The position numbers and the translations under genes are program-made. This document shows, piece by piece, positions 2,706-31,220 of a stretch of 64,000 nt of DNA (positions are counted from its first letter, which is position 1; each line of letters starts with the position of its first letter). The notes under the pieces are model-generated. The model had not been told where the DNA came from. It ran no database searches and saw nothing but the letters and a program-made list of their open reading frames with translations. Source of the stretch: an uncultured Clostridia bacterium. GTDB taxonomy: Bacteria; Bacillota; Clostridia; Oscillospirales; Acutalibacteraceae. The stretch lies in assembly GCA_944384855.1 (NCBI GenBank), contig CALWUY010000053.1, positions 1 through 64,000 of the forward strand, written 5' to 3'.

Positions 2706-2959
2706 ATAAAAAATCGCCCTGCCCCTATTGGGACAAGACGAAAAAATCCTGTTAATGCCACCCAAATTAAATTGAATCAGAACACATCAATGTCCGCCGT
2801 AACGATAACGGATACGGTCCCCGTCGGTTGCTACTCGCTTTTGCTTTCGTCCGCCCTCATAAGTCCATTCGCAAAATTTTCCGTCACAGTATTTTCACCG
2901 GCAACTGCTCTCTGAAGACGCAAAAACAATGTTACTATTCTTAATCACAGGTTTAAGAT
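2706..2959 (-). promoter_or_regulatory. T-box riboswitch, tryptophan specifier (UGG)
   Basis: Leader RNA of trpB that senses uncharged tRNA-Trp. Read on the minus strand, GAA-TGG-ACTTATGAG places a TGG specifier codon at 2867-2865 with the purine that normally follows it. The T-box proper is GGGTGGCA (2763-2756); its UGGC would pair with an NCCA end whose discriminator is G, as in bacterial tRNA-Trp. It ends in a 12-bp terminator (TCGTCTTGTCCC-AATA-GGGGCAGGGCGA, 2741-2714) followed by Ts. The T-box sequence overlaps the antiterminator, as expected. Specifier and discriminator pairing both point to tryptophan. Confidence 0.92.
2714..2741 (-). terminator. T-box-controlled terminator of trpB leader
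   Basis: A 12-bp stem with an AATA loop, then TTTTTTAT on the minus strand. It is the off-state hairpin of the T-box leader and lies 80 bases before the trpB start. Confidence 0.9.
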
Positions 2960-20739: not shown

Positions 20740-21771
20740 TCATTCTATTGTATCGGCCAATTTTAAAATCAAATTGTGTGTTTTTTCCCACCCCAGACAC
20801 GGGTCGGTAATGGATTTTCCGTAAGTATGTTCGCTTACTTTCTGTGCACCGTCTTCTATATAGCTTTCTATCATAAGACCTTTTACCATATTTTTTATAT
20901 CCCGGTTGTGATTGCAGCTGTATATTACATCCTTTGCTATACGAACCTGCTCAAGATACTGTTTTCCGGAATTCGCGTGATTGGTATCTACAACAACCGA
21001 AGGATTTGCGAGGTTGGTTTCAGCGTACAGGCTGTGCAGTTTTACAAGATCTTCATAATGATAGTTAGAAGCGCTCTTTCCGGCATAATCTATGTAACCT
21101 CTGAGTATCGCATGTGCTAAAGGATTACCCTTGCTCTTTACTTCCCAGCCTCTGTATATAAAAGTATGACCGTGCTGAGCGGCGGTTATCGCGTTCATCA
21201 TAATATGCAGATCACCGCTGGTAGGATTTTTCATCCCTACCGGCACATCAATTCCGCTGGCGGTAAGGCGATGCTGCTGGTTCTCAACAGAACGCGCTCC
21301 CACGGCCACGTAAGCTAACAAGTCAGATAAATATCTGTAATTATCCGGATACAGCATTTCGTCGGCGCAGGTAAATCCGTAATCCCTGAGTGCGCTCATA
21401 TGCAGATCCCTTATCGCAAGTATTCCTTTAAGCATATCCGGATTTTCGTTCGGGTCGGGCTGATGAAGCATACCCTTATATCCGGCGCCTGTCGTTCGGG
21501 GTTTATTAGTGTAAACACGCGGTATGATATAAAATTTATCTTTAACTTCATCCTGCAAATTACGCAGTCTTCCTACATAATCGAGTACAGCCTCGCGGTT
21601 GTCCGCAGAACACGGTCCGATAATAAGCAGCAGCTTATCGCTTCGCCCCATAAAAATATCTTTTATATCACAGTCACGCTGTTCTTTGATTTTTTGCAGT
21701 TGCTCTGTCAACGGATATCTGTTTTTTATTTGTTGCGGAATTTGCAGTTTTCGTAAAAATTCTAAGTTCAT
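20740..21771 (-). CDS. aroF: 3-deoxy-7-phosphoheptulonate synthase (type I DAHP synthase)
   Basis: Condenses phosphoenolpyruvate and erythrose-4-phosphate, the committed step of the shikimate pathway. 343 residues, the E. coli AroF/G/H (type I-alpha) form. Motifs are LLLIIGPCSADNREAVLDYV, IPRVYTNKPRTTGAGYKG, GARSVENQQHR, PVGMKNPTSGD and VVVDTNHANSGKQ. The core ends at the usual length with no fused chorismate mutase. It is the last gene of the nine-gene aromatic operon, 9 bases after tyrA, with GGAG before the ATG. The symbol aroF is a guess among the three paralogue names. Confidence 0.93.
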   Translation of the reverse strand: MNLEFLRKLQIPQQIKNRYPLTEQLQKIKEQRDCDIKDIFMGRSDKLLLIIGPCSADNREAVLDYVGRLRNLQDEVKDKFYIIPRVYTNKPRTTGAGYKGMLHQPDPNENPDMLKGILAIRDLHMSALRDYGFTCADEMLYPDNYRYLSDLLAYVAVGARSVENQQHRLTASGIDVPVGMKNPTSGDLHIMMNAITAAQHGHTFIYRGWEVKSKGNPLAHAILRGYIDYAGKSASNYHYEDLVKLHSLYAETNLANPSVVVDTNHANSGKQYLEQVRIAKDVIYSCNHNRDIKNMVKGLMIESYIEDGAQKVSEHTYGKSITDPCLGWEKTHNLILKLADTIE

Positions 21772-21780
21772 TTTCGTCTC

Positions 21781-22635
21781 CTATTTGTCAAATCTTTTGC
21801 GGCGTTCGGTTGAAACCTTCATCATCTTACGCATACCGTCGCGGTCATCATTTTTTATTTTATCGTACAGTTCGGTAAAAGATGATAAAAATTTATCCAT
21901 TTCATTAAGCAGTGCGGTTTTATTGCTTAAAAACAGCTCGCTCCACATTTCATCGTTTATTCTGGCAATTCTTGTGAGATCCCTGAAAGAATCTCCCGTG
22001 TAATGCTCGAGACCCGGAGTATTATTGCAGCACATAAGCGATACCGCAAGGCAATGTGTCAGCTGAGACAAAAAAGCAATCATATCATCATGTTCTTCCA
22101 CAGTCAGTTCAGCTATAAATTTAAACCCGAGAATTTCACCTATATTTCTGCAAAGCTCAATCGCTTCCGGAGTATTTTTTTCGGTCGGAACCACAATATA
22201 GTTGGCATCAAGAAAAATGCTCTCGTCACTGTTTTCGACTCCGCTTACTTCTCTGCCGGCCATTGGATGAGCCGCGATAAATTCAACATCATCACGTAAC
22301 ATATCCTGTATTTTGTAAACTATCGCTCCCTTCACGCCGGTAACATCGGTAATTACAGCTCCGCTTTTGAAATACTTCTGATTTTCTTTGATCCAATCAA
22401 CAAATATATGGGGATACAGCGCAAAAATAACTATGTCCGCAGACGCTATCATTTCACTGTCAATTTCGGTGGTACCGCGGTCGATAATTCCGTTTTTTAA
22501 TGCATAGTCAACTGATGACTGTTCTTTCGTAATCGCATTTACCTCAAAACCCAATTTTTTAAGTCCCTTGGCATAACTTCCGCCTAACAGTCCCAATCCT
22601 ACAATTAATATATTTACGTTCTTTATAAGTTTCAT
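21781..22635 (-). CDS. tyrA: prephenate dehydrogenase
   Basis: Oxidatively decarboxylates prephenate to 4-hydroxyphenylpyruvate for tyrosine. 284 residues, monofunctional. The N-terminal NAD-binding fold is NILIVGLGLLGGSYAKGLKK. Further motifs are DVTGVKGAIV, AAHPMAGREVSGVENS and FLSQLTHCLAVSL. No ACT domain follows, so feedback control through one is unlikely. It overlaps the aroA stop by 4 bases. Confidence 0.94.
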   Translation of the reverse strand: MKLIKNVNILIVGLGLLGGSYAKGLKKLGFEVNAITKEQSSVDYALKNGIIDRGTTEIDSEMIASADIVIFALYPHIFVDWIKENQKYFKSGAVITDVTGVKGAIVYKIQDMLRDDVEFIAAHPMAGREVSGVENSDESIFLDANYIVVPTEKNTPEAIELCRNIGEILGFKFIAELTVEEHDDMIAFLSQLTHCLAVSLMCCNNTPGLEHYTGDSFRDLTRIARINDEMWSELFLSNKTALLNEMDKFLSSFTELYDKIKNDDRDGMRKMMKVSTERRKRFDK

Positions 22636-23843
22636 TCGTTAATCACCTTGAGCTTTATACCTAATCCGGCTATTTTTTCAAAAAAATCCGGAAAACTTTT
22701 ATTTACCGCCTCGGCGCCCGATATTGTGCCGCCCGTAGCGCTTGCGAGCACAGCGAGTGCCATAACTATCCTATGATCGTTATGACCGTAAAGAATACTG
22801 TTTGGAGCTTTTAATTTGCATTTATTTACAGTAATACGGTTTTCTTCTGTTTTTACACCGCATCCGAATTTCTCAAGTTCCTCTTTCATAGCCTGTCCAC
22901 GGTCGCTTTCCTTGATTTTTAGCCGCCTGATACCCGTAAAAACCGCACCGTTATACAGAGCCGCAACCGCCATCAATACAGGTGCCAAATCCGGACAGTC
23001 CGTCAAATCAATCACCGGACAGCCTGCCTGCAATGCGGAAAAATGCTGTTTGTATATACTGTCTCCCTGAGCAGTATTTTTTGACAATCCCCTGACTGCA
23101 ACATTTCCGCCTGTCAAATTAAAAGCATCCAGAAACGCGGCGTTTGAATAATCACCTTCTACTCTGATAACCCGGTTTTTGCACCGCTGATTACCTTTTA
23201 TATAAATTGTGCGCTCATCTTCGCGGCTTGCCCTCACACCGAACTTACCTAACGCTTTTACCGTCATTGTCAGATACGGCGCACTTTCTATATTTCCGAT
23301 AATTTCTATCCTGCTGTCTCCCTCCGCCTGCGACAACGCAAACATAAGTCCGCTTATAAACTGGCTTGAAATATCTCCCTGTACTTTATAAATTCCGCTT
23401 GAAAGCATACCTTTTACTGTTATACTGTTGCTTTCTTTCTTGAATTTCAATCCCTGCGCGAGACAAATCTGTTCGTATACATAAAGCGATCTTTGAAACA
23501 GACGCTCACTGCCTCTTAAAGTAATATCTGTACCGAACATAAGACAAAGAGGTATTAAAAACCTGAGCGTGCTGCCGCTTTCATTACAATCTATAACCGT
23601 AGAAATCGGATTTCCTGTAAAATCAATTCCTCCGGCTGTGACGGTATCTGCGGTTATTTCAATTTTTGCACCTAATGCCTTCAATCCGTTCAGCGTAGCT
23701 TCTATATCTTTTGAAAAACTTATACCGCCTATTTCGCTCCGCTGTGAAAGCCCCGCGCAAATCAAGTATCTGTGTGACATACTTTTGGACGGCGGTGCGT
23801 TTACTCTGCCGCACGCCGTGCTTTTTTCAATAGTAACTGTCAT
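22632..23843 (-). CDS. aroA: 3-phosphoshikimate 1-carboxyvinyltransferase (EPSP synthase)
   Basis: Transfers enolpyruvyl from PEP to shikimate-3-phosphate. 403 residues. Motifs are NAPPSKSMSHRYLICAGLS (phosphate/PEP binding), CNESGSTLRFLIPLCL, GDISSQFISGLMFALS, GDYSNAAFLDAF and IKESDRGQAMKEEL. It overlaps the aroQ stop by one base and tyrA by 4. Confidence 0.95.
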   Translation of the reverse strand: MTVTIEKSTACGRVNAPPSKSMSHRYLICAGLSQRSEIGGISFSKDIEATLNGLKALGAKIEITADTVTAGGIDFTGNPISTVIDCNESGSTLRFLIPLCLMFGTDITLRGSERLFQRSLYVYEQICLAQGLKFKKESNSITVKGMLSSGIYKVQGDISSQFISGLMFALSQAEGDSRIEIIGNIESAPYLTMTVKALGKFGVRASREDERTIYIKGNQRCKNRVIRVEGDYSNAAFLDAFNLTGGNVAVRGLSKNTAQGDSIYKQHFSALQAGCPVIDLTDCPDLAPVLMAVAALYNGAVFTGIRRLKIKESDRGQAMKEELEKFGCGVKTEENRITVNKCKLKAPNSILYGHNDHRIVMALAVLASATGGTISGAEAVNKSFPDFFEKIAGLGIKLKVINE

Positions 23844-24283
23844 TATTTACTGTCCCCGCAATAATTAATTAAAAAGTCCATCGCTTCGGTGTACCCTTTA
23901 ATACCGTGACCTGAGATCGTCTTTACGCAGGCGGCGCGTATGTAGCTTATCTGTCTGAAATCTTCCCGCTTTGAGACATCCGATATATGTACTTCCACGG
24001 TAGGTACACAAACCGCCTTAACCGCATCAAGCAGGGCTACGCTTGTATGGGTATAGGCTGCCGGATTAATAATTATACCCTCAAACTTATCAATGGCCTG
24101 CTGAATCTTATCAACCAGATCGCCCTCATGATTTGACTGATATATTTCCACCTCAACACCGGCTTTTTCGGCGTGTGATTTTATGCTTTCACACAGGGAT
24201 GAATAATCCTCTCTGCCGTAAATATCAGGTTCTCTTATCCCCAGCATATTTATATTAGGTCCGTTCAACACCAAAAACTTCAT
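23843..24283 (-). CDS. aroQ: type II 3-dehydroquinate dehydratase
   Basis: Dehydrates 3-dehydroquinate in the third shikimate step; the dodecameric, trans-dehydrating form. 146 residues. Start VLNGPNINMLGIREPDIYG (catalytic Tyr after Ile). Also EVEIYQSNHEGDLVDKIQQA, GIIINPAAYTHTSVALLDA (active-site Asn and His) and VEVHISDVSKREDFRQISY. Its N-terminus overlaps the end of the aroE-aroK fusion by 29 bases. Confidence 0.96.
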   Translation of the reverse strand: MKFLVLNGPNINMLGIREPDIYGREDYSSLCESIKSHAEKAGVEVEIYQSNHEGDLVDKIQQAIDKFEGIIINPAAYTHTSVALLDAVKAVCVPTVEVHISDVSKREDFRQISYIRAACVKTISGHGIKGYTEAMDFLINYCGDSK

Positions 24284-25517
24284 TTAAAAATCCCTCTTCG
24301 GCCTTTTTTATATTTGTTTCCAGATCATATTCCGCATTTATTCTTACGTCACAGGCGGAAACATAACGGTCATACCGTTCGTTATATCTCTTTTTCAGCA
24401 ATTCCCTGCTGCTTGAAAGCGGACGATCATCAGTTGAAATCAGCTGCTCTAAAGGCCGATCAATAAAAATCACCGTTCCGTTTTCTTTCAGCAGATGAAT
24501 ATTTTTAGAATTCAAAACCGCTCCGCCGCCCGTGGCAATAACACAGTTTTGCTTAGGCGAAATTTTTGCGATTACCTCGCTTTCAATTTCACGGAATGCG
24601 GACTCTCCGTATTTGTCGAAAAAATCGGATATACTCATATTGATAGCTTTAATGATTTCCTCATCCGTATCGATAAACTCTTTAGAAAGGCTTTCAGAAA
24701 GCGATTTTCCTATGGTAGTTTTTCCGCAGCTGGGCATACCTATAAGCACAGCATTTTTTTTATCTTTTAATATTTTTTTGTAAATTCGGTCTACTTCAGC
24801 CGCCTTAACTTCAGCACCTATAAATTTTTCCACTGCAAATGCAGCCTGGGAAATCAGCATATAAAGTCCTCCGGCAGCTTTTACCGAATTCTCTTTAGCC
24901 GAGACTACAAGCGACGAGTTAATCGGATTATACACAGCGTCTATAACACCGCAAAGCTTCGGAAAACGTATTATATCAACTGCTTCTCCGTCAATGTTCG
25001 GATACATACCGCAGGGAGTGGTATTGATAATTATTTCAGCGTCAGCATATCGGCTGTATGCTTCTTCATAAGTTATAAGTCCCGGAGTTTTTCTTCTCGA
25101 AACCCTCAAAACCTCTGCCGCGTTCATACTTTCAGCTACGGCAAAAGCAGTTTCAGATGTGCCGCCGCTTCCCAAAATCAAAACCTTTTTCCCCGAAAGC
25201 GAAATATTTTCACGGTTTATCAGATCAGACATTCCGAAAAAATCAGTATTATACCCGTAAAGCCTGCCGTTTCTGTTTACTATGGTGTTTACCGCGCCTA
25301 TTTTTTTAGCTATGCCGTCAATTTTATATAAATAAGGTATTACGGCTTTTTTATACGGAATTGTTACGTTTATCGCCTTGAAATCTGCCTTCTGCATAAA
25401 TCCGGGTAAATCTTGGGGCGAAATCTCCAATAACTCGTAATCGTAATCTGCCAATTCATTATGTATGATTTTTGAAAAACTGTGTCCTAATTTTTCGCCT
25501 ATACAACCGTAATCCAT
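24255..25517 (-). CDS. aroE: fused shikimate dehydrogenase - shikimate kinase
   Basis: 420 residues joining two consecutive shikimate-pathway enzymes. Residues 1 to about 250 are AroE: GEKLGHSFSKIIHNEL, INVTIPYKKAVIPYL (catalytic Lys), GAVNTIVNRNGRLYGYNTD (NTD) and KVLILGSGGTSETAFAVAE. From about residue 257 it is AroK: AVLIGMPSCGKTTIGKSL (Walker A), DTDEEI, GESAFREIESEVI, IATGGGAVL and DDRPLSS. The frame is continuous, with no frameshift at the junction, so this is a true fusion. Its start overlaps the aroC stop by one base (TAATG). Confidence 0.93.
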   Translation of the reverse strand: MDYGCIGEKLGHSFSKIIHNELADYDYELLEISPQDLPGFMQKADFKAINVTIPYKKAVIPYLYKIDGIAKKIGAVNTIVNRNGRLYGYNTDFFGMSDLINRENISLSGKKVLILGSGGTSETAFAVAESMNAAEVLRVSRRKTPGLITYEEAYSRYADAEIIINTTPCGMYPNIDGEAVDIIRFPKLCGVIDAVYNPINSSLVVSAKENSVKAAGGLYMLISQAAFAVEKFIGAEVKAAEVDRIYKKILKDKKNAVLIGMPSCGKTTIGKSLSESLSKEFIDTDEEIIKAINMSISDFFDKYGESAFREIESEVIAKISPKQNCVIATGGGAVLNSKNIHLLKENGTVIFIDRPLEQLISTDDRPLSSSRELLKKRYNERYDRYVSACDVRINAEYDLETNIKKAEEGFLNEVFGVERT

Positions 25518-26608
25518 TATCTAACCAACCAATCCGTACCGTATCTTCCTGTCAATATATCGCAAAGCACCAATGCCGTAATGCTGTCAACAACCACGCG
25601 CGCTCTGTGAACAATGGCGGGATCATGTCTGCCTCCTGCAGTAAACTCAATATTTTCATTCGTTTCTATATCAATAGTATGCTGAGATTTATGTATTGTA
25701 GGCGTAGGTTTTACTGCACAGCGGAAAATTATCGGCATACCGTTTGTTATACCGCCGTTTATACCGCCGTTATTATTGGTTTTAGTGCGTACCTTTTGAC
25801 CGTCATAATAAAACTCATCGTTTGCCTGACTGCCGTACATACCGGCGATTGAAAAGCCTGCTCCGAATTCTACTCCTTTAACGGCAGGCACCGAGAATAA
25901 AGCGTGTGAAAGCATGCTCTCTACCGTGTCAAACCACGGTTCACCCACTCCTGCAGGCATACCTATTACTGCTGTCTCAAGAACACCACCTACGCTGTCA
26001 CCGTCGGACTTTGCGGCAACTATCGCCTTTTTCATCTCTTCGGCGGCAGAATCGTTTAATGCCGCAAACTGCTTTGTATTCAGCGCGGCAATATCCTGTT
26101 CGTAATTCTTAAACTCCGAATCACCTATGCCGGCGCACTGCGAAATATGCGTGCCGATTAAAATTCCTTTGCTTTTAAGAGCGGAAACCGCCACTGCTCC
26201 AGCCGCAACCAAAGCGGCAGTAATCCTTCCGCTGAAATGTCCTCCTCCGCGGTAATCGGCAAACCCGTTATATTTTGCTATAGCAGTAAAATCGGCGTGA
26301 CCCGGACGCATTTTATTCTTTATTTCGCTGTAATCCTTAGATTTTGTATCTTCATTCGGTATAATGATGCAAATAGGAGTGCCCGTAGTGAAACCGTTGA
26401 AAACTCCGCTGAGTATTGTAAAATTATCAGACTCTGTCCTCGGAGTAGAAATTTGACCGACCGGCTTGCGCAAATCAAGCTGATAACGGATAAAATCCTC
26501 ATCGACCTTGATTCCCGGCGCCATACCGTCAATTACCGCGCCAATTGCGCTGCCGTGGCTTTCACCGAAAAGCGTTACGGTTACATTGTTCCCTAAAATA
26601 TTTTTCAA
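25517..26608 (-). CDS. aroC: chorismate synthase
   Basis: Makes chorismate from EPSP, with reduced flavin. 363 residues. Motifs are GESHGSAIGAVIDGMAPGI, DFRGGGHFSGR-type segment (read as YRGGGHFSGRITAALVAAGA), MPAGVGEPWFDTVES, KGVEFGAGF, NNNGGINGGITNGMPIIFR and GGRHDPAIVHRARVVVD. Starts inside the last codons of aroB (4-base overlap). Confidence 0.96.
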   Translation of the reverse strand: MKNILGNNVTVTLFGESHGSAIGAVIDGMAPGIKVDEDFIRYQLDLRKPVGQISTPRTESDNFTILSGVFNGFTTGTPICIIIPNEDTKSKDYSEIKNKMRPGHADFTAIAKYNGFADYRGGGHFSGRITAALVAAGAVAVSALKSKGILIGTHISQCAGIGDSEFKNYEQDIAALNTKQFAALNDSAAEEMKKAIVAAKSDGDSVGGVLETAVIGMPAGVGEPWFDTVESMLSHALFSVPAVKGVEFGAGFSIAGMYGSQANDEFYYDGQKVRTKTNNNGGINGGITNGMPIIFRCAVKPTPTIHKSQHTIDIETNENIEFTAGGRHDPAIVHRARVVVDSITALVLCDILTGRYGTDWLVR

Positions 26609-27618
26609 CGGAAAGTCACCTCTTTTAAATACTCGGCCAGTTTTTCGTAAGGTATCGTGCGAAGTATATAACTGCCGGCATCCTCAACGTATACTACCGT
26701 TATATTATCTCCGGCCATTTTCTTGTCATGCTTTACAGCTTCAAGTATATCTGCGATATTAAAATCTATGCGTGTAGGAAGATTTAATTTTTCAAGCACC
26801 TTTATAAGCCGTTCGCGCACCGGTTCAGAGCACATCGGAATCATACCCAGTGCCACACATTCGCCGTGATAAAGATTCTGCATTTTATTTTCACTTTCAA
26901 TCGCATGTGCCAGTGTGTGACCGAAATTCAGAATTTTTCTAAGTCCTGTTTCTTTCTCGTCCTGCTCTACTACATACCGTTTAATTTTCAGTGAACGTTC
27001 TATAATTATATCAATATTGTCGGATACATCTTGATTTTCAAAAAGTGAAAACAATTCACAGTCGCTTGTAAGAGACATTTTTACCGACTCAGCCAGACCG
27101 TTGGAAATCTGTCTTTGCGGCAGTGTTTTAAGCGTATCCGAATCAATGACAACAGCTTTCGGGGGATAAAACGCACCTACTATATTCTTATAACCGGCAA
27201 AATCTATTGCTACCTTTCCTCCGACAGAAGAATCCACCTGCGACAGAACCGTTGTAGGTATATTGTAAAAATCTATTCCTCTCATAAAAGAAGCGGCGGC
27301 AAAACCCGCAAGGTCTCCGACAACCCCGCCCCCTACCGCTATTACCGCATCTGTTCTGGTAAAGTCAAGTTTTACCATTTCTTCAAGCAAATGCCTGTAA
27401 CTGTCAAACGATTTGGAAGCCTCTCCCTCTGGTATCGTCACAATATGAGGGCTCTGACACTGACCAGCAACAGTTTCTGCATAAACGCCGGGTACTCCGC
27501 TGTCTGTAACTATCAGCACCCTCCGGTCAAGAGACATATATTTTCCAAGCTCAGAAATCGCTCCTTTTTCTAACACTATGTTATATTGTCCAGCTGAAGT
27601 CTTTACCGGAATAATCAT
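26605..27618 (-). CDS. aroB: 3-dehydroquinate synthase
   Basis: Cyclises DAHP to 3-dehydroquinate using NAD and a divalent metal. 337 residues. Motifs are IPEGEASKSFDSYRHLLEEM, AVIAVGGGVVGDLAGFAAAS, IPTTVLSQVDSSVGGKVAID, LRKILNFGHTLAHAIE (metal-binding His) and YHGECVALGM. Lies 25 bases after pheA. Confidence 0.95.
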   Translation of the reverse strand: MIIPVKTSAGQYNIVLEKGAISELGKYMSLDRRVLIVTDSGVPGVYAETVAGQCQSPHIVTIPEGEASKSFDSYRHLLEEMVKLDFTRTDAVIAVGGGVVGDLAGFAAASFMRGIDFYNIPTTVLSQVDSSVGGKVAIDFAGYKNIVGAFYPPKAVVIDSDTLKTLPQRQISNGLAESVKMSLTSDCELFSLFENQDVSDNIDIIIERSLKIKRYVVEQDEKETGLRKILNFGHTLAHAIESENKMQNLYHGECVALGMIPMCSEPVRERLIKVLEKLNLPTRIDFNIADILEAVKHDKKMAGDNITVVYVEDAGSYILRTIPYEKLAEYLKEVTFR

Positions 27619-27643: not shown

Positions 27644-28732
27644 CTATAATGAAACTTCTTTTTCGTAAGAGCCTATAACCTTAATTTCACTGCATTTTGT
27701 TTTCAGCTCACTCAGCATTTTCTTTCCCTGCATGCTGTTGATATTTCCCTCTCCCTCAGCAAAAAAGTAATAGCTCCATACAAGCTCTTTTGTAGGCCTG
27801 CTCTTTAATGCTTTAAGATTGAATCCGTTATCGCCTATAATCGAAATCGCCTTACCGAGTGAACCGGCCTCATTTGTAACGGTAAAAAGAAGTATAAAAT
27901 TGTTATCGGTTGCCGAAGGAGTTTTTAAAGTCCTTGAAAATACGGCAAACCGCGTAGTATTGACATTGCTTTCGTTTATATGCGCTTCTATCTTCTGAAG
28001 TCCGAACTTCTCAGCCGCTTCCTCACTTGCGATAGCTGCGATATCTTTTCTGCCGGACTCTGCCACCATTTTGGCGGCAACCGCCGTATTGACAGCCTCA
28101 ATTGTTTCAAAACCGTGCCTTTTTATGTATTCAGCGCACTGACCAAGCGCCTGAGGATGACTGATTACGGTTTTTATATCGTCCATGACAGCGCCTTTGT
28201 TAACCAACAGATTCTGAACAATACCTATATCGTAAATTCCGTTTATATAAAGAGAACCGAAAAAGGCTAAATCCATAACCTGTCCTACATCTCCGTTATA
28301 GCTGTTTTCTATAGGCAAAATCACACAGTCACATTCCCCGCCGGCTACCGAATTATATGCTGCCCTGAAATCGCCGTAAGGCACAGCCACAGCATCCGGG
28401 AATACCTTGTTGGCGGCAATATTGGCAAATGCGCCTTCAACACCGCTGAACGCTACTCTCATGCCTTCTAACAGGCGGTGCTGATAATTTTTTGAAATTT
28501 CCATATTGCTCTGCAAAAAGGTTACGTAATACGATTTAAGCGATTCATCCTCGATAAGTTTGGAGTTTCTCTTTAGATTCTCCGCCTCTCTGACAGAATC
28601 GGTAACCTGAAGACCGTGCAGTCTTTTATACTCGGCTACTTTTTTTACCGCATTCATTCTCTCGGTAAAAAGTCTCGCCATTTCACTGTCAATTTCATTT
28701 ATTTTTTGTCTTGCCTTTTCAAGATCAGTCAT
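27644..28732 (-). CDS. pheA: bifunctional chorismate mutase / prephenate dehydratase
   Basis: P-protein of phenylalanine synthesis, about 362 residues. Residues 1-90 are an AroQ-type chorismate mutase (KINEIDSEMARLFTERM, VKKVAEYKR). About 95-275 is prephenate dehydratase (VAFSGVEGAFANIAA, LPIENSYNGDVGQV, NVNTTRFAVFSR). About 285-355 is an ACT domain (NEAGSLGKAISI, LKSRPTKELVWSYYFF), the usual Phe feedback site. ATG at 28732 lies 4 bases after the aminotransferase stop, with GGTGAG before it. A TTG 7 codons upstream is the alternative. Confidence 0.95.
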   Translation of the reverse strand: MTDLEKARQKINEIDSEMARLFTERMNAVKKVAEYKRLHGLQVTDSVREAENLKRNSKLIEDESLKSYYVTFLQSNMEISKNYQHRLLEGMRVAFSGVEGAFANIAANKVFPDAVAVPYGDFRAAYNSVAGGECDCVILPIENSYNGDVGQVMDLAFFGSLYINGIYDIGIVQNLLVNKGAVMDDIKTVISHPQALGQCAEYIKRHGFETIEAVNTAVAAKMVAESGRKDIAAIASEEAAEKFGLQKIEAHINESNVNTTRFAVFSRTLKTPSATDNNFILLFTVTNEAGSLGKAISIIGDNGFNLKALKSRPTKELVWSYYFFAEGEGNINSMQGKKMLSELKTKCSEIKVIGSYEKEVSL

Positions 28733-28736
28733 TAAC

Positions 28737-29921
28737 TCACCTATATTCTTCAATCAACTTTTTAAATCCGGGAAGCGCCTTTTTTATCATTTCAGTGCTT
28801 ACGCAATAACTTATCCTTACATATCCCTCATACCCGAAATCATCTCCCGGCACTATCAGAATTTCATACTTTTTCGCTCTCTCACAAAAAGCGTTTGCGT
28901 CTTTTTCCGGTGATTTGACAAACAAATAGAACGCGCCGTCCGGTCTTACCGCGGTGTAACCGTATTCTGTCAGTGCGCTGTATAAAAGATTTCTGTTTTT
29001 ATCATATACAGATATATCTGAAGTCTTACCCAATACTTCTTTTATTGTGTACTGCAAAAGACTCGGAGCGCAGACATATCCCAATGCCCTGCCTGCTCCG
29101 CACACTGCCGCATACAAATCTTCACAACCCGACGCATCGGGCGATACAAAAATATAACCTATTCTTTCCCCTGGCAGTGATAGTGATTTGCTGAACGAAT
29201 AACATACCACCGTATTTTTATAAAAATCAGGGATATACGGCACTTCAATTCCGCCGTAAACCAACTCGCGGTAAGGCTCGTCCGCGATAATATAGATTTC
29301 ACTTCCGAATTCCCTCGATTTTTCTGTCAGCAGTTCTGATAACTTAGTTATTGTCTCGGCGCTTAACACCGCGCCGCTGGGATTGTTCGGCGAATTAATA
29401 ATTATTGCTTTTGTCTTGGCGCATATTATACCGCCAAGTGCTTCAAAATCAATCTGAAAATCAGCTTCACGGCATTTCACGGTCTTAACAGCGGCGCCTG
29501 CCTTTTCGGCGAAAACGGTATACTCAGGAAAAAACGGAGCCAACAGTATAACCTCATCACCCTCTACAATAAGTGCATTAAGGGTTATTGCAAGAGAAGC
29601 TGCCGCGCCGCATGTCATATAAATCAGTTCAGGTCTTGCGCCAGCCGAAAAACGCTTGTTTATATCGTCTGCTATGGCTTTTCTTACACCGGCATCACCC
29701 TGAGCCGAAGTATAGCCGTGAAGTTCAACAGAAGGTTTGTTCTTTATAAGTTCAGACATTGTCCTGTTAACTTCGTCAGGCGCCGGAATACTCGGATTTC
29801 CGAGACTGAAATCGAATACATTGTCGGCTCCTATCTGACTTTTGCGAACATTACCGTATTCGAATATCTCCCTTATAACCGAACGTTTTTTCCCCAGACT
29901 TACCATTTTTTCGGAAAACAT
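28737..29921 (-). CDS. class I/II aminotransferase, first gene of aromatic operon
   Basis: About 394 residues, PLP fold type I. Motifs are FSLGNPSIPAPDEV, YMTCGAAASLAITL, INSPNNPSGAVLS, IIADEPYRELVY, CYSFSKSLSLPGERIGY (PLP lysine) and GYVRISYCVS. Leading an operon that makes phenylpyruvate and 4-hydroxyphenylpyruvate, it most likely performs the final transamination to Phe and Tyr; that is inference from context. ATG at 29921 has AAGGA 8 bases before it. A TTG 7 codons upstream is less likely. It is separated from its promoter by the Phe attenuator. Confidence 0.9.
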   Translation of the reverse strand: MFSEKMVSLGKKRSVIREIFEYGNVRKSQIGADNVFDFSLGNPSIPAPDEVNRTMSELIKNKPSVELHGYTSAQGDAGVRKAIADDINKRFSAGARPELIYMTCGAAASLAITLNALIVEGDEVILLAPFFPEYTVFAEKAGAAVKTVKCREADFQIDFEALGGIICAKTKAIIINSPNNPSGAVLSAETITKLSELLTEKSREFGSEIYIIADEPYRELVYGGIEVPYIPDFYKNTVVCYSFSKSLSLPGERIGYIFVSPDASGCEDLYAAVCGAGRALGYVCAPSLLQYTIKEVLGKTSDISVYDKNRNLLYSALTEYGYTAVRPDGAFYLFVKSPEKDANAFCERAKKYEILIVPGDDFGYEGYVRISYCVSTEMIKKALPGFKKLIEEYR

Positions 29922-29954
29922 ACCAAAAATCCTTTCTGTCAATAAGTTTACATC

Positions 29955-29998
29955 AAAAAACCCGCAACTCGTATACTTAAAAGTACGACGAATGCGGG
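29955..29998 (-). terminator. attenuator terminator of aromatic operon
   Basis: On the minus strand CCCGCA (29998-29993) pairs with TGCGGG (29966-29961). Inner TCGT/ACGA and TACT/AGTA segments extend the hairpin, and six Ts follow. It lies between the leader peptide stop (30014) and the first structural gene, so it must be read through for the operon to be expressed. Confidence 0.88.
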
Positions 29999-30048
29999 CT
30001 GACCGTTTATAAGTTAAAACTTAGTTTTAACAGTGTGCGGACAGTCCG
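29995..30048 (-). promoter_or_regulatory. candidate antiterminator and pause hairpin of Phe attenuator
   Basis: CGGACTGTCC (30048-30039, inside the leader ORF just after the Phe run) can pair with GGTCAGCCCG (30004-29995) with 8 pairs out of 10. That pairing would occupy four bases of the terminator 5' arm, so the two structures exclude each other. Between them GTTAAAAC and GTTTTAAC (30031-30024 and 30020-30013) form a perfect 8-bp hairpin that encloses the leader stop codon. These are paper pairings, not folded by program. Confidence 0.55.
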
Positions 30049-30088
30049 TGTTTATAAAGTAAAAAAACTGTATACTGAAATTAAACAT
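30014..30088 (-). CDS. Phe-rich leader peptide of the aromatic operon
   Basis: A 24-codon ORF: ATG at 30088-30086, TAA at 30016-30014, preceded by the strong ribosome site GGGAGGG 8 bases upstream. The peptide begins MFNFSIQFFYFIN. Six of its 24 codons are Phe and one is Tyr, with four of the six Phe codons at positions 4-11 around FFYF. This density in a ribosome-loaded ORF just before a terminator and a Phe/Tyr biosynthetic operon is the hallmark of a leader peptide. Too short for ordinary gene calling. Phe starvation should stall the ribosome at FFYF. Confidence 0.82.
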   Translation of the reverse strand: MFNFSIQFFYFINTDCPHTVKTKF

Positions 30089-30119
30089 ATAAACTGCCCT
30101 CCCATAAAAGTTCTATACT

Positions 30120-30148
30120 ATTTTACTCCTGACGGTATATTTTGTCAA
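30120..30148 (-). promoter_or_regulatory. SigA promoter of attenuator and aromatic operon
   Basis: Minus strand TTGACA (30148-30143), 17 bases, TAAAAT (30125-30120). Transcription would start near 30113, 10 bases before the leader ribosome site. It lies 50 bases after the mreB-like stop, so the aromatic operon is separately transcribed. Confidence 0.85.
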
Positions 30149-30197: not shown

Positions 30198-31220
30198 TTA
30201 CTGTATCTCGAGCTCTTTTATCGAGCGCAGCTGATAATCTACATTTTTCAGCAGGTTTCTCTTTTTTAGCGCGGCTGCCGCGCCTTTTACAACACTGTAG
30301 GCAGGGTTGTCAAGACAGTGCACCTTAATCCCGAGATAATCCGACATTCTGTCCGCCAGACCCGTAAGCTGAGATCCTCCTCCCGTAAGATACATTCCGT
30401 CGTTTATTATATCTGCCACGAGGTCAGGATTTGTTTTATTAAGTACCATCCTTATACCGTTGCAAATACTGTCAACCGTATCAATGATAGCATCGTAAAC
30501 CTCAGAACTTGATATCTCGAAGCTTTCAGGCAATCCCGTAAATACATTTCTGCCTTTTGCAAGCACCGCAACTTCAATATCCCGCTTTACTGCCGCGCCT
30601 ATTTTTATCTTGACAGACTCGGCAGTCAGCGGACCTATTTCAATATTATACTCTTTCCTCACATATCTGATTATCTGTGCGTCAAAATCAAGCGAAGCCG
30701 TCTTCATTGAATCACATTCGACAATTCCTCCCATAGAAATTACCGCAATATCGGTAGTGCCCGCACCTACGTCTACAATCAAGGTACCGTACGGTACTGA
30801 AAAATCAAGCCCCAAACCAAACGCTATCGCGAGCGGTCCTTCTATTACGGATATATTTCTGCCTCCTGCGGCTTCTACCACATTTGCGAGCGAATGATGC
30901 TGAAGTTCAGTAAGTCCGCACGGCAATGTCGCCATAATTCTCGGGCGCATCAGTTTATTTCCGAACGCCGCCTGCATATAATTTTTCAGCATCGCCTCTG
31001 CGATATCGTAATCCGATATTACTCCGTGTTCAATGGGACTTATACAGGTAAGACTCTCCGGAGTTCTGCCTAATGTCTGCTTTGCCTTTTCACCGAAATA
31101 TTTCGGTTCCCATGTATCTGCATCAACCGTTACAGCGTTAGGCATTTCAAAAACGATTTTCGAACTCGAAAAAATTACTGTCTTTGAAGTGCCCAAATCT
31201 ATTCCAATGTCAGTTGCCAT
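30198..31220 (-). CDS. mreB: MreB/Mbl-family actin-like cell-shape protein
   Basis: 340 residues, about the length of MreB/Mbl. Actin-fold motifs are DIGIDLGTSKTVIF (phosphate 1), LIVDVGAGTTDIAVISMGG (phosphate 2), VIEGPLAIAFGLGLD and YLTGGGSQLTGLADRM (adenosine). It polymerises on the membrane to guide wall synthesis. There is no mreC/mreD beside it, so it may be a second paralogue (Mbl or MreBH-like) rather than the main MreB. Its start overlaps the end of the comF-like gene by 11 bases. GAGG precedes the ATG. Confidence 0.88.
   Translation of the reverse strand: MATDIGIDLGTSKTVIFSSSKIVFEMPNAVTVDADTWEPKYFGEKAKQTLGRTPESLTCISPIEHGVISDYDIAEAMLKNYMQAAFGNKLMRPRIMATLPCGLTELQHHSLANVVEAAGGRNISVIEGPLAIAFGLGLDFSVPYGTLIVDVGAGTTDIAVISMGGIVECDSMKTASLDFDAQIIRYVRKEYNIEIGPLTAESVKIKIGAAVKRDIEVAVLAKGRNVFTGLPESFEISSSEVYDAIIDTVDSICNGIRMVLNKTNPDLVADIINDGMYLTGGGSQLTGLADRMSDYLGIKVHCLDNPAYSVVKGAAAALKKRNLLKNVDYQLRSIKELEIQ

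Follow-up and report, generated by a model that had tools for sequence, protein, structure and literature searches.

How is a nine-gene shikimate, phenylalanine and tyrosine operon controlled in an uncultured Clostridia bacterium of the Acutalibacteraceae? Amino-acid operons of Clostridia are more often regarded as T-box controlled, and leader-peptide attenuation is best known from E. coli, not from gut Clostridia. The operon lies within a stretch of 64,000 nucleotides (contig CALWUY010000053.1, positions 1 to 64,000), which is called the window throughout. An earlier note on this DNA, made from the sequence alone, had proposed that a ribosome-mediated attenuator sensing phenylalanine stands in front of the operon. 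We conclude from comparative sequence analysis, with a probability of about 0.87, that the leader is a ribosome-mediated transcription attenuator which reads the charging of tRNA-Phe as well as tRNA-Tyr and thereby controls the operon.

The leader and the operon behind it

All elements of the leader are encoded on the minus strand. The consensus promoter, the strong ribosome site, the 24-codon ORF, the two antiterminator arms and the terminator are present as the earlier note had described them. That note missed a third helix, which region 2 forms with the leader's own ribosome-binding site. In the order of transcription the elements are:

30120..30148, minus strand: promoter, with TTGACA as -35 (30148-30143), a 17-base spacer and TAAAAT as -10 (30125-30120); from the sequence
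30091..30103, minus strand: leader ribosome-binding site GGGAGGG (30103-30097) and region 1, GGGCAGTTT (30099-30091), the partner of region 2; from the MFE fold and swapped-partner tests
30014..30088, minus strand: leader peptide ORF MFNFSIQFFYFINTDCPHTVKTKF, 24 codons, from the ATG at 30088 to the TAA at 30014; from the sequence and relatives
30038..30048, minus strand: region 2, CGGACTGTCCG, pairing with region 1 (protector) or region 3 (antiterminator); from covariation and partner swaps
30013..30031, minus strand: small hairpin separating regions 2 and 3, with the leader stop codon in its 3' arm; from folding
29995..30005, minus strand: region 3, CGGTCAGCCCG (30005-29995), with the antiterminator arm GGTCAGCCCG (30004-29995), pairing with region 2 or with region 4 (terminator); from covariation and a partner swap
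29955..30000, minus strand: intrinsic terminator formed by regions 3 and 4, hairpin at about 30000-29959 and six-T tract at 29960-29955; from sequence, fold and covariation

The ORF contains six Phe codons and one Tyr codon, and its densest aromatic stretch comprises codons 8-11 (FFYF, 30067-30056). The antiterminator of the window has two mismatches and a duplex energy of -13.8 kcal/mol. Folding of the leader, which the earlier note had suggested as a check, gave -44.1 kcal/mol for the 161 bases versus a mean of -28.7 kcal/mol for shuffled sequences (z -4.55; none of 200 shuffles equalled it). The MFE fold holds both the terminator and the helix 1:2 between the ribosome-site region and region 2.

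A leader as well structured as this could also be one that binds a ligand or a protein, be it a riboswitch, a relative of the T-box or the target of an RNA-binding protein, in which case the ORF would be incidental. No Rfam family matches the window leader at gathering score, however, and the matches found there up to E 10 are unconvincing. The T-box model (RF00230) has no match at the site, which bears out the absence of a T-box stated in the earlier note. The Phe_leader model (RF01859) matches weakly at ten other places of the genome, always below its cut-off, and does not match the attenuator locus; leu-phe_leader (RF01743) has two weak ones elsewhere in the genome and none at the locus, and passes its cut-off in one of 14 control genomes. 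We therefore rejected a T-box or other Rfam family as the element at this site. A binding RNA would moreover leave the frame-specific aromatic codons described below unexplained, and we consider it highly unlikely.

The terminator is followed by nine genes on the minus strand which are backed by NCBIfam matches:

28737..29921, minus strand: pyridoxal-phosphate aminotransferase, the first gene of the operon (NF005305, above its cut-off)
27644..28753, minus strand: pheA, chorismate mutase/prephenate dehydratase (E 5.5e-59, below curated cut-offs)
26605..27618, minus strand: aroB, 3-dehydroquinate synthase
25517..26608, minus strand: aroC, chorismate synthase
24255..25517, minus strand: aroE-aroK fusion, shikimate dehydrogenase/shikimate kinase (below curated cut-offs)
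23843..24283, minus strand: aroQ, type II 3-dehydroquinate dehydratase
22632..23843, minus strand: aroA, 3-phosphoshikimate 1-carboxyvinyltransferase (E 1.5e-77, below the curated cut-off)
21781..22635, minus strand: tyrA, prephenate dehydrogenase (E 7e-49, below curated cut-offs)
20740..21771, minus strand: DAHP synthase of the aroF/G type

These matches support the nine shikimate, phenylalanine and tyrosine genes of the earlier note, one of them being the aroE-aroK fusion. Four of the assignments (pheA, aroE-aroK, aroA and tyrA) rest on matches that are strong, yet below the curated cut-offs. The aminotransferase probably starts at the ATG at 29921, which has a ribosome site (AGAAAGG) 5' of it, and not at the listed TTG at 29942. 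The operon should produce both phenylalanine and tyrosine.

Aromatic codons in the leaders of related genomes

The aminotransferase was searched in 99 related genomes, and it or a relative was found in 98; those relatives that carry a name are metagenome-assembled genomes of uncultured Clostridia and Oscillospiraceae from the gut. From the first 59 matches 58 were taken, one 3' fragment of G014 being left out. Three loci (L031, L034, L064) that begin at a contig end or close to one, and so lack usable sequence 5' of the gene, were excluded, so that 55 upstream regions were compared. Leaders were called by an aromatic density of at least 4 in 8 residues together with a ribosome-site score. One locus, L063, met the density limit by chance with the layout absent and was removed by hand. 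Start codons were set by hand in L030, L032 and L060, as were the terminator ends in L015, L017, L037, L040 and L054, for which the script had returned none or the wrong one.

In 40 of the 55 orthologous upstream regions the layout is the one seen in the window: a promoter-like pattern and a ribosome site come first, then an ORF containing a Phe/Tyr cluster, then a terminator. The ORFs comprise 17-27 codons, and a loose promoter pattern (TTGAC[ATC], 16-18 bases, TAnnnT) occurs within 90 bases 5' of the start codon in all 40 leaders. Four genomes (G013, G055, G003 and G074) among the 15 lacking this layout at the aminotransferase have the element before pheA. At E 0.05 a model search found no attenuator in 11 of the 55 genomes, some of these 11 being incomplete. 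None was found at that threshold in G007 (L012) and G021 (L016), despite aminotransferases that are 78% and 75% identical to that of the window. These two genomes are 87% and 96% complete, respectively, and are possible cases of natural attenuator loss that could be used for comparison.

An MreB-like gene lies upstream of the attenuator in the window (30198-31220) and, judged by eye, seems to be a conserved neighbour, also at L012, L016, L022 and L025-L028. These loci are all without a leader before the aminotransferase. The genomes of L022, L025 and L027 carry the attenuator before pheA elsewhere.

The codon content of the 40 leaders is biased. Together they contain 155 Phe and 151 Tyr codons (306 of 886), both kinds are present in every one of the leaders, and no Trp codon occurs among the 886. 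In frame, Phe and Tyr make up 34.5% of the codons, whereas the two alternative frames have 10.4% and 14.8%; 1000 dinucleotide shuffles gave a mean of 19.0% (sd 0.9 percentage points) and a maximum of 21.8%. TTT and TTC are used 138 and 17 times, TAT and TAC 95 and 56 times. The predicted ORFs thus carry clustered codons for products of the pathway encoded behind them. At equivalent positions of the leaders Phe and Tyr codons swap for each other, and this mixed, interchangeable use fits selection for the use of the two tRNAs. The Phe sensor of the earlier note therefore stands as far as the clustered Phe codons are concerned; sensing of phenylalanine alone was rejected in view of the nearly equal codon numbers.

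The last aromatic codon 5' of region 2 begins 7-13 bases (median 7) before that region in the 40 leaders. A ribosome stalled on earlier codons of the cluster would, at this spacing, leave region 2 largely free.

The window on its own would not carry the argument. Its seven Phe and Tyr codons among 23 are not beyond chance, since 521 of 5000 dinucleotide shuffles of the ORF did equally well, and we rejected this count as proof. It is an ordinary number for AT-rich DNA, and the significance rests on the relatives. The count would suit a plain early terminator which is preceded by a Phe-rich ORF merely by chance and has no regulatory role. Such a terminator does not account for conservation in several families, nor for the covarying alternative helices and a codon cluster confined to one frame; its probability is close to negligible.

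The same codons could act through the peptide that they encode. In an arrest peptide of the TnaC kind the nascent aromatic chain would stall the ribosome in response to free phenylalanine or tyrosine or to another molecule, and not to uncharged tRNA. Motifs like RFYY or FYYF do recur in many leaders, but the residues around the cluster vary, Phe and Tyr interchange, and the leader of the window reads QFFYF instead of RFYY. Stalling in response to an excess of product would furthermore lead to read-through, which would be the wrong sign for a biosynthetic operon. We regard an arrest peptide as improbable, and the codons are better read as a measure of tRNA charging within an attenuator.

Three competing helices and a proposed switch

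An alignment of orthologous leaders had been proposed in the earlier note as a check, and it revealed covarying alternative helices in addition to the aromatic codon clusters. The terminator 3:4 is paired in 93.9% of 312 cells of the alignment and has a covariation score of 0.333; five of its pairs, and 24 cells, are changed on both sides. None of 500 shuffles was as high on the percentage, the cells or the covariation score, and six were on the number of pairs. For the antiterminator 2:3, 78.6% of 468 cells are paired, the covariation score is 0.214, and six pairs and 20 cells are changed on both sides; again no shuffle of 500 reached the percentage, the cells or the covariation score, while 37 reached the number of pairs changed on both sides. 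Two antiterminator positions are mostly mismatched (21/39 and 30/39). A shift of the antiterminator by -2 or -3 columns gave 23 and 22 doubly changed cells versus 20 in the unshifted position; only 38% and 23% of the cells were then paired, and the covariation score fell to 0.152 and 0.049 from 0.214.

The helix 1:2 was assessed by partner swaps and not by columns, because the spacing between ribosome site and start codon varies and region 1 is consequently left unaligned by MAFFT. In the 40 leaders region 2 pairs with its own region 1 at -11.57 kcal/mol versus -9.56 kcal/mol with swapped partners (0 of 2000 permutations; own partner better in 29/40). For 2:3 the values are -15.72 and -13.41 kcal/mol (0 of 2000; own better in 28/40). 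The swaps, like the shuffles, leave the relatedness among the leaders in place.

For a second set of leaders we built a covariance model, R1, from 36 of the 40 leaders, four near-duplicates being left out. With E 0.01 as the limit, it matched 42 of the 394 genomes in a draw from the order. In the class draw 9 of 391 genomes have a match at E 0.001, six of them outside the order, and in the phylum draw 2 of 398 do, namely the genome of the window itself and G078 from the same order. The three draws overlap, and stricter filters were used in the large searches. The attenuator was found across several families. Elsewhere in the genome of the window R1 has 12 weak matches (E 0.019 and above). Four of these (L092-L095) were viewed by eye, and none resembled a Phe/Tyr attenuator before a gene of the pathway.

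The best 30 order-wide matches became loci, six of which repeat leaders among the 40. The remaining 24 were combined with L128-L131 and L134-L136 into an alignment of 31 further copies, with L132, L133 and weaker rows left out. Both Phe and Tyr codons occur in 30 of the 31; L131 has Phe codons only. The gene next 3' is pheA in 16 cases, aroF in 8 and the aminotransferase in 7 (eight were checked with NCBIfam). All 31 copies hence precede a gene for making the amino acids presumed to be sensed, which indicates that the switch stayed with the pathway and not with one gene.

In this alignment the antiterminator is paired in 82.9% and the terminator in 97.2% of the cells, and no shuffle of 500 reached the covariation scores; the number of antiterminator pairs changed on both sides was reached by 17 of 500. 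Partner swaps gave -12.97 kcal/mol for the own and -9.81 for swapped partners of 1:2 (0/2000; own better in 28/31), and -15.11 versus -13.87 for 2:3 (0/2000; own better in 24/31). Since R1 was trained on regions 2 and 3 and not on region 1, the result for 1:2 is the more independent one. A consensus fold of the full leader returns the terminator only, as is expected if the helices exclude each other, and the helices were for that reason counted separately. Taken one by one, 1:2, 2:3 and 3:4 each show evidence of co-evolution.

These helices suggest the following switch. With phenylalanine and tyrosine in ample supply the ribosome would clear the codon cluster, and region 2 would be covered by the ribosome or captured by region 1 behind it. 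With region 2 occupied, region 3 would pair with region 4, and transcription would stop before the first gene. If charged tRNA-Phe or tRNA-Tyr is short, the ribosome would stall within the cluster, between regions 1 and 2, and hold them apart. Region 2 could then pair with region 3 before the polymerase has made region 4, and read-through would result. In an untranslated leader 1:2 would form and bury the ribosome site, so that the default state would be off.

Folding models agree with this scheme in part. When the leader is masked up to region 2, as by a stalled ribosome, and region 4 is absent, 2:3 has at least 6 expected pairs in 40/40 leaders, and when the full leader is free, 36/40 reach 5 or more for 3:4. 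As long as region 4 is absent, 33/40 leaders favour 2:3 over 1:2 even if no ribosome is there, which means that the off state must depend either on the ribosome or on an earlier formation of 1:2. Once region 4 has been added to a leader with a stalled ribosome, only 21/40 have more expected pairs in 2:3 than in 3:4, the leader of the window being among the 19 others, so that read-through must depend on timing. A timing-dependent outcome is usual for attenuators. Placing the ribosome at the stop codon costs 2:3 more than one pair in just 25/40. Region 2 has the ribosome site as its main partner in 30/40 of the free full leaders, but not in the other 10/40. The antiterminator and the terminator are mutually exclusive helices by alignment, with which equilibrium folding agrees only partly.

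Across the 40 leaders the best fold of the interval between regions 2 and 3 ranges from -1.6 to -16.9 kcal/mol. The hairpin formed there may draw regions 2 and 3 close to each other; it includes the stop codon in the leader of the window and, as judged by eye, in several more.

Considering the 40 of 55 layouts, the frame-specific codons, the covarying helices and the partner swaps, the ribosome-mediated attenuation proposed in the earlier note is supported as the best explanation. For a more far-reaching interpretation we would give even odds: with the leader's own ribosome-binding site as protector arm, region 2 would decide on transcription of the operon and on renewed translation of the leader at once, making this a self-locking switch, specific for Clostridia and set by the first ribosome, that responds to phenylalanine and tyrosine and was retained while the first gene changed among aminotransferase, pheA and aroF, in a lineage that in the present genome uses a T-box for pheS.

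Predicted sensors in one genome and comparison with known systems

The genome of the window is not devoid of T-boxes. Nine matches were found, six of them above the Rfam cut-off. As judged by reading the proteins, they precede pheS, thrS, asnS, trpS, two trpB-like genes, a LeuA/citramalate-synthase-like gene and two acyl-CoA-synthetase-like genes. The T-box before pheS (L002) lies at C9:75182-75414. Judging from these predicted elements, the genome seems to have two means of reading tRNA-Phe: the T-box at pheS and, at the operon described here, the leader peptide. A T-box reads a single tRNA. A leader peptide can read two, which would suit an operon that makes both phenylalanine and tyrosine.

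Two further observations concern the T-boxes themselves. A match on the minus strand of the window (2726-2957; 79.2 bits, below the Rfam cut-off of 93 and for that reason absent from the Rfam scan of the window) is followed by a TrpB-like gene. Two T-boxes on C2 of the same genome (L005, L006) lie within 3 kb and have unusual targets; by eye, the proteins downstream show an XRE-like start, a cupin-like stretch and an acyl-CoA-synthetase-like part.

With this element a comparatively well-supported Phe/Tyr attenuator, present in several families, is added to the Clostridia, and one device would sense two amino acids. As a T-box at pheS and the leader peptide occur in one genome, the choice between the two sensors becomes testable. 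An attenuator of this kind needs a ribosome close behind the RNA polymerase before the terminator forms and therefore offers a way to study how transcription and translation are coupled in Clostridia, a point on which Firmicutes are believed to differ from E. coli.

The sensor working by coupled translation in a Gram-positive lineage, as suggested in the earlier note, is supported, but in the accounts cited here it would not be the first in Firmicutes (PMC2965389, PMC9413887, PMC5794164, PMC8632094, PMC2864571). The His-leader attenuators predicted in Firmicutes, including C. difficile, likewise combine a leader peptide with clustered codons, an antiterminator and a terminator; according to the passages concerned, they differ by His codons and by their position at his or hisS/hisZ genes (PMC2965389, PMC9413887). 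For bacilli the former source predicts that a His leader peptide precedes hisS/hisZ; in its relevant section it knew of no earlier case outside Proteobacteria and Actinobacteria, ermC aside (PMC2965389). The latter predicts His attenuators in the B. cereus group, in Peptostreptococcaceae with Lutispora and in Erysipelotrichales (PMC9413887). A further account covers, in its pertinent part, Actinobacteria (PMC1262725). For the ilv-leu operon of S. aureus genetic evidence for a Leu-rich attenuator peptide is described; this too is leader-peptide attenuation in a Firmicute, differing by Leu, a branched-chain operon and its occurrence in Bacilli (PMC5794164).

Two candidates are closer by name or by the amino acid. 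The leu-phe leader RNA (RF01743), listed for Lactococcus lactis in the relevant part of PMC2864571, is likewise a Firmicute leader named after Leu and Phe, and its model has no match here. The predicted uORFC-13-1 motif before aroF (DAHP synthase) of Acholeplasma shares a short ORF with a Phe-coding U run, a possible promoter and a terminator, and it was suggested that its control depends on how fast Phe is incorporated (PMC8632094). As described there, it is set apart by at least one Phe codon and by its occurrence in Acholeplasma and environmental sequences only, and the passages on this motif mention neither a Tyr cluster nor a ribosome-site protector (PMC8632094).

A search of the open-licence literature, which is weak evidence of absence, found no account of a Phe/Tyr element or of a ribosome-site protector. 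What we consider new, with the function inferred from sequence, is the combination of phenylalanine plus tyrosine, the occurrence in Clostridia, the ribosome-site protector and the three different first genes.

The best known counterpart is pheL-pheA of E. coli (RF01859). It shares the Phe-rich leader peptide, the alternative helices, the intrinsic terminator and the position before phenylalanine biosynthesis. PheL is, however, without Tyr codons, whereas the 40 Clostridia leaders carry both kinds. The two also differ in what region 2 pairs with. In the one E. coli K-12 pheL leader analysed, the expected pairs of region 2 (16 bases) number 13.7 for the codons and 0.0 for the initiation region. 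For region 2 of the Clostridia leaders (13 bases, mean of 40) the corresponding values are 1.67 and 6.05. The protector arm would thus be formed by the control codons in E. coli pheL and by the ribosome-binding site in most of the Clostridia leaders.
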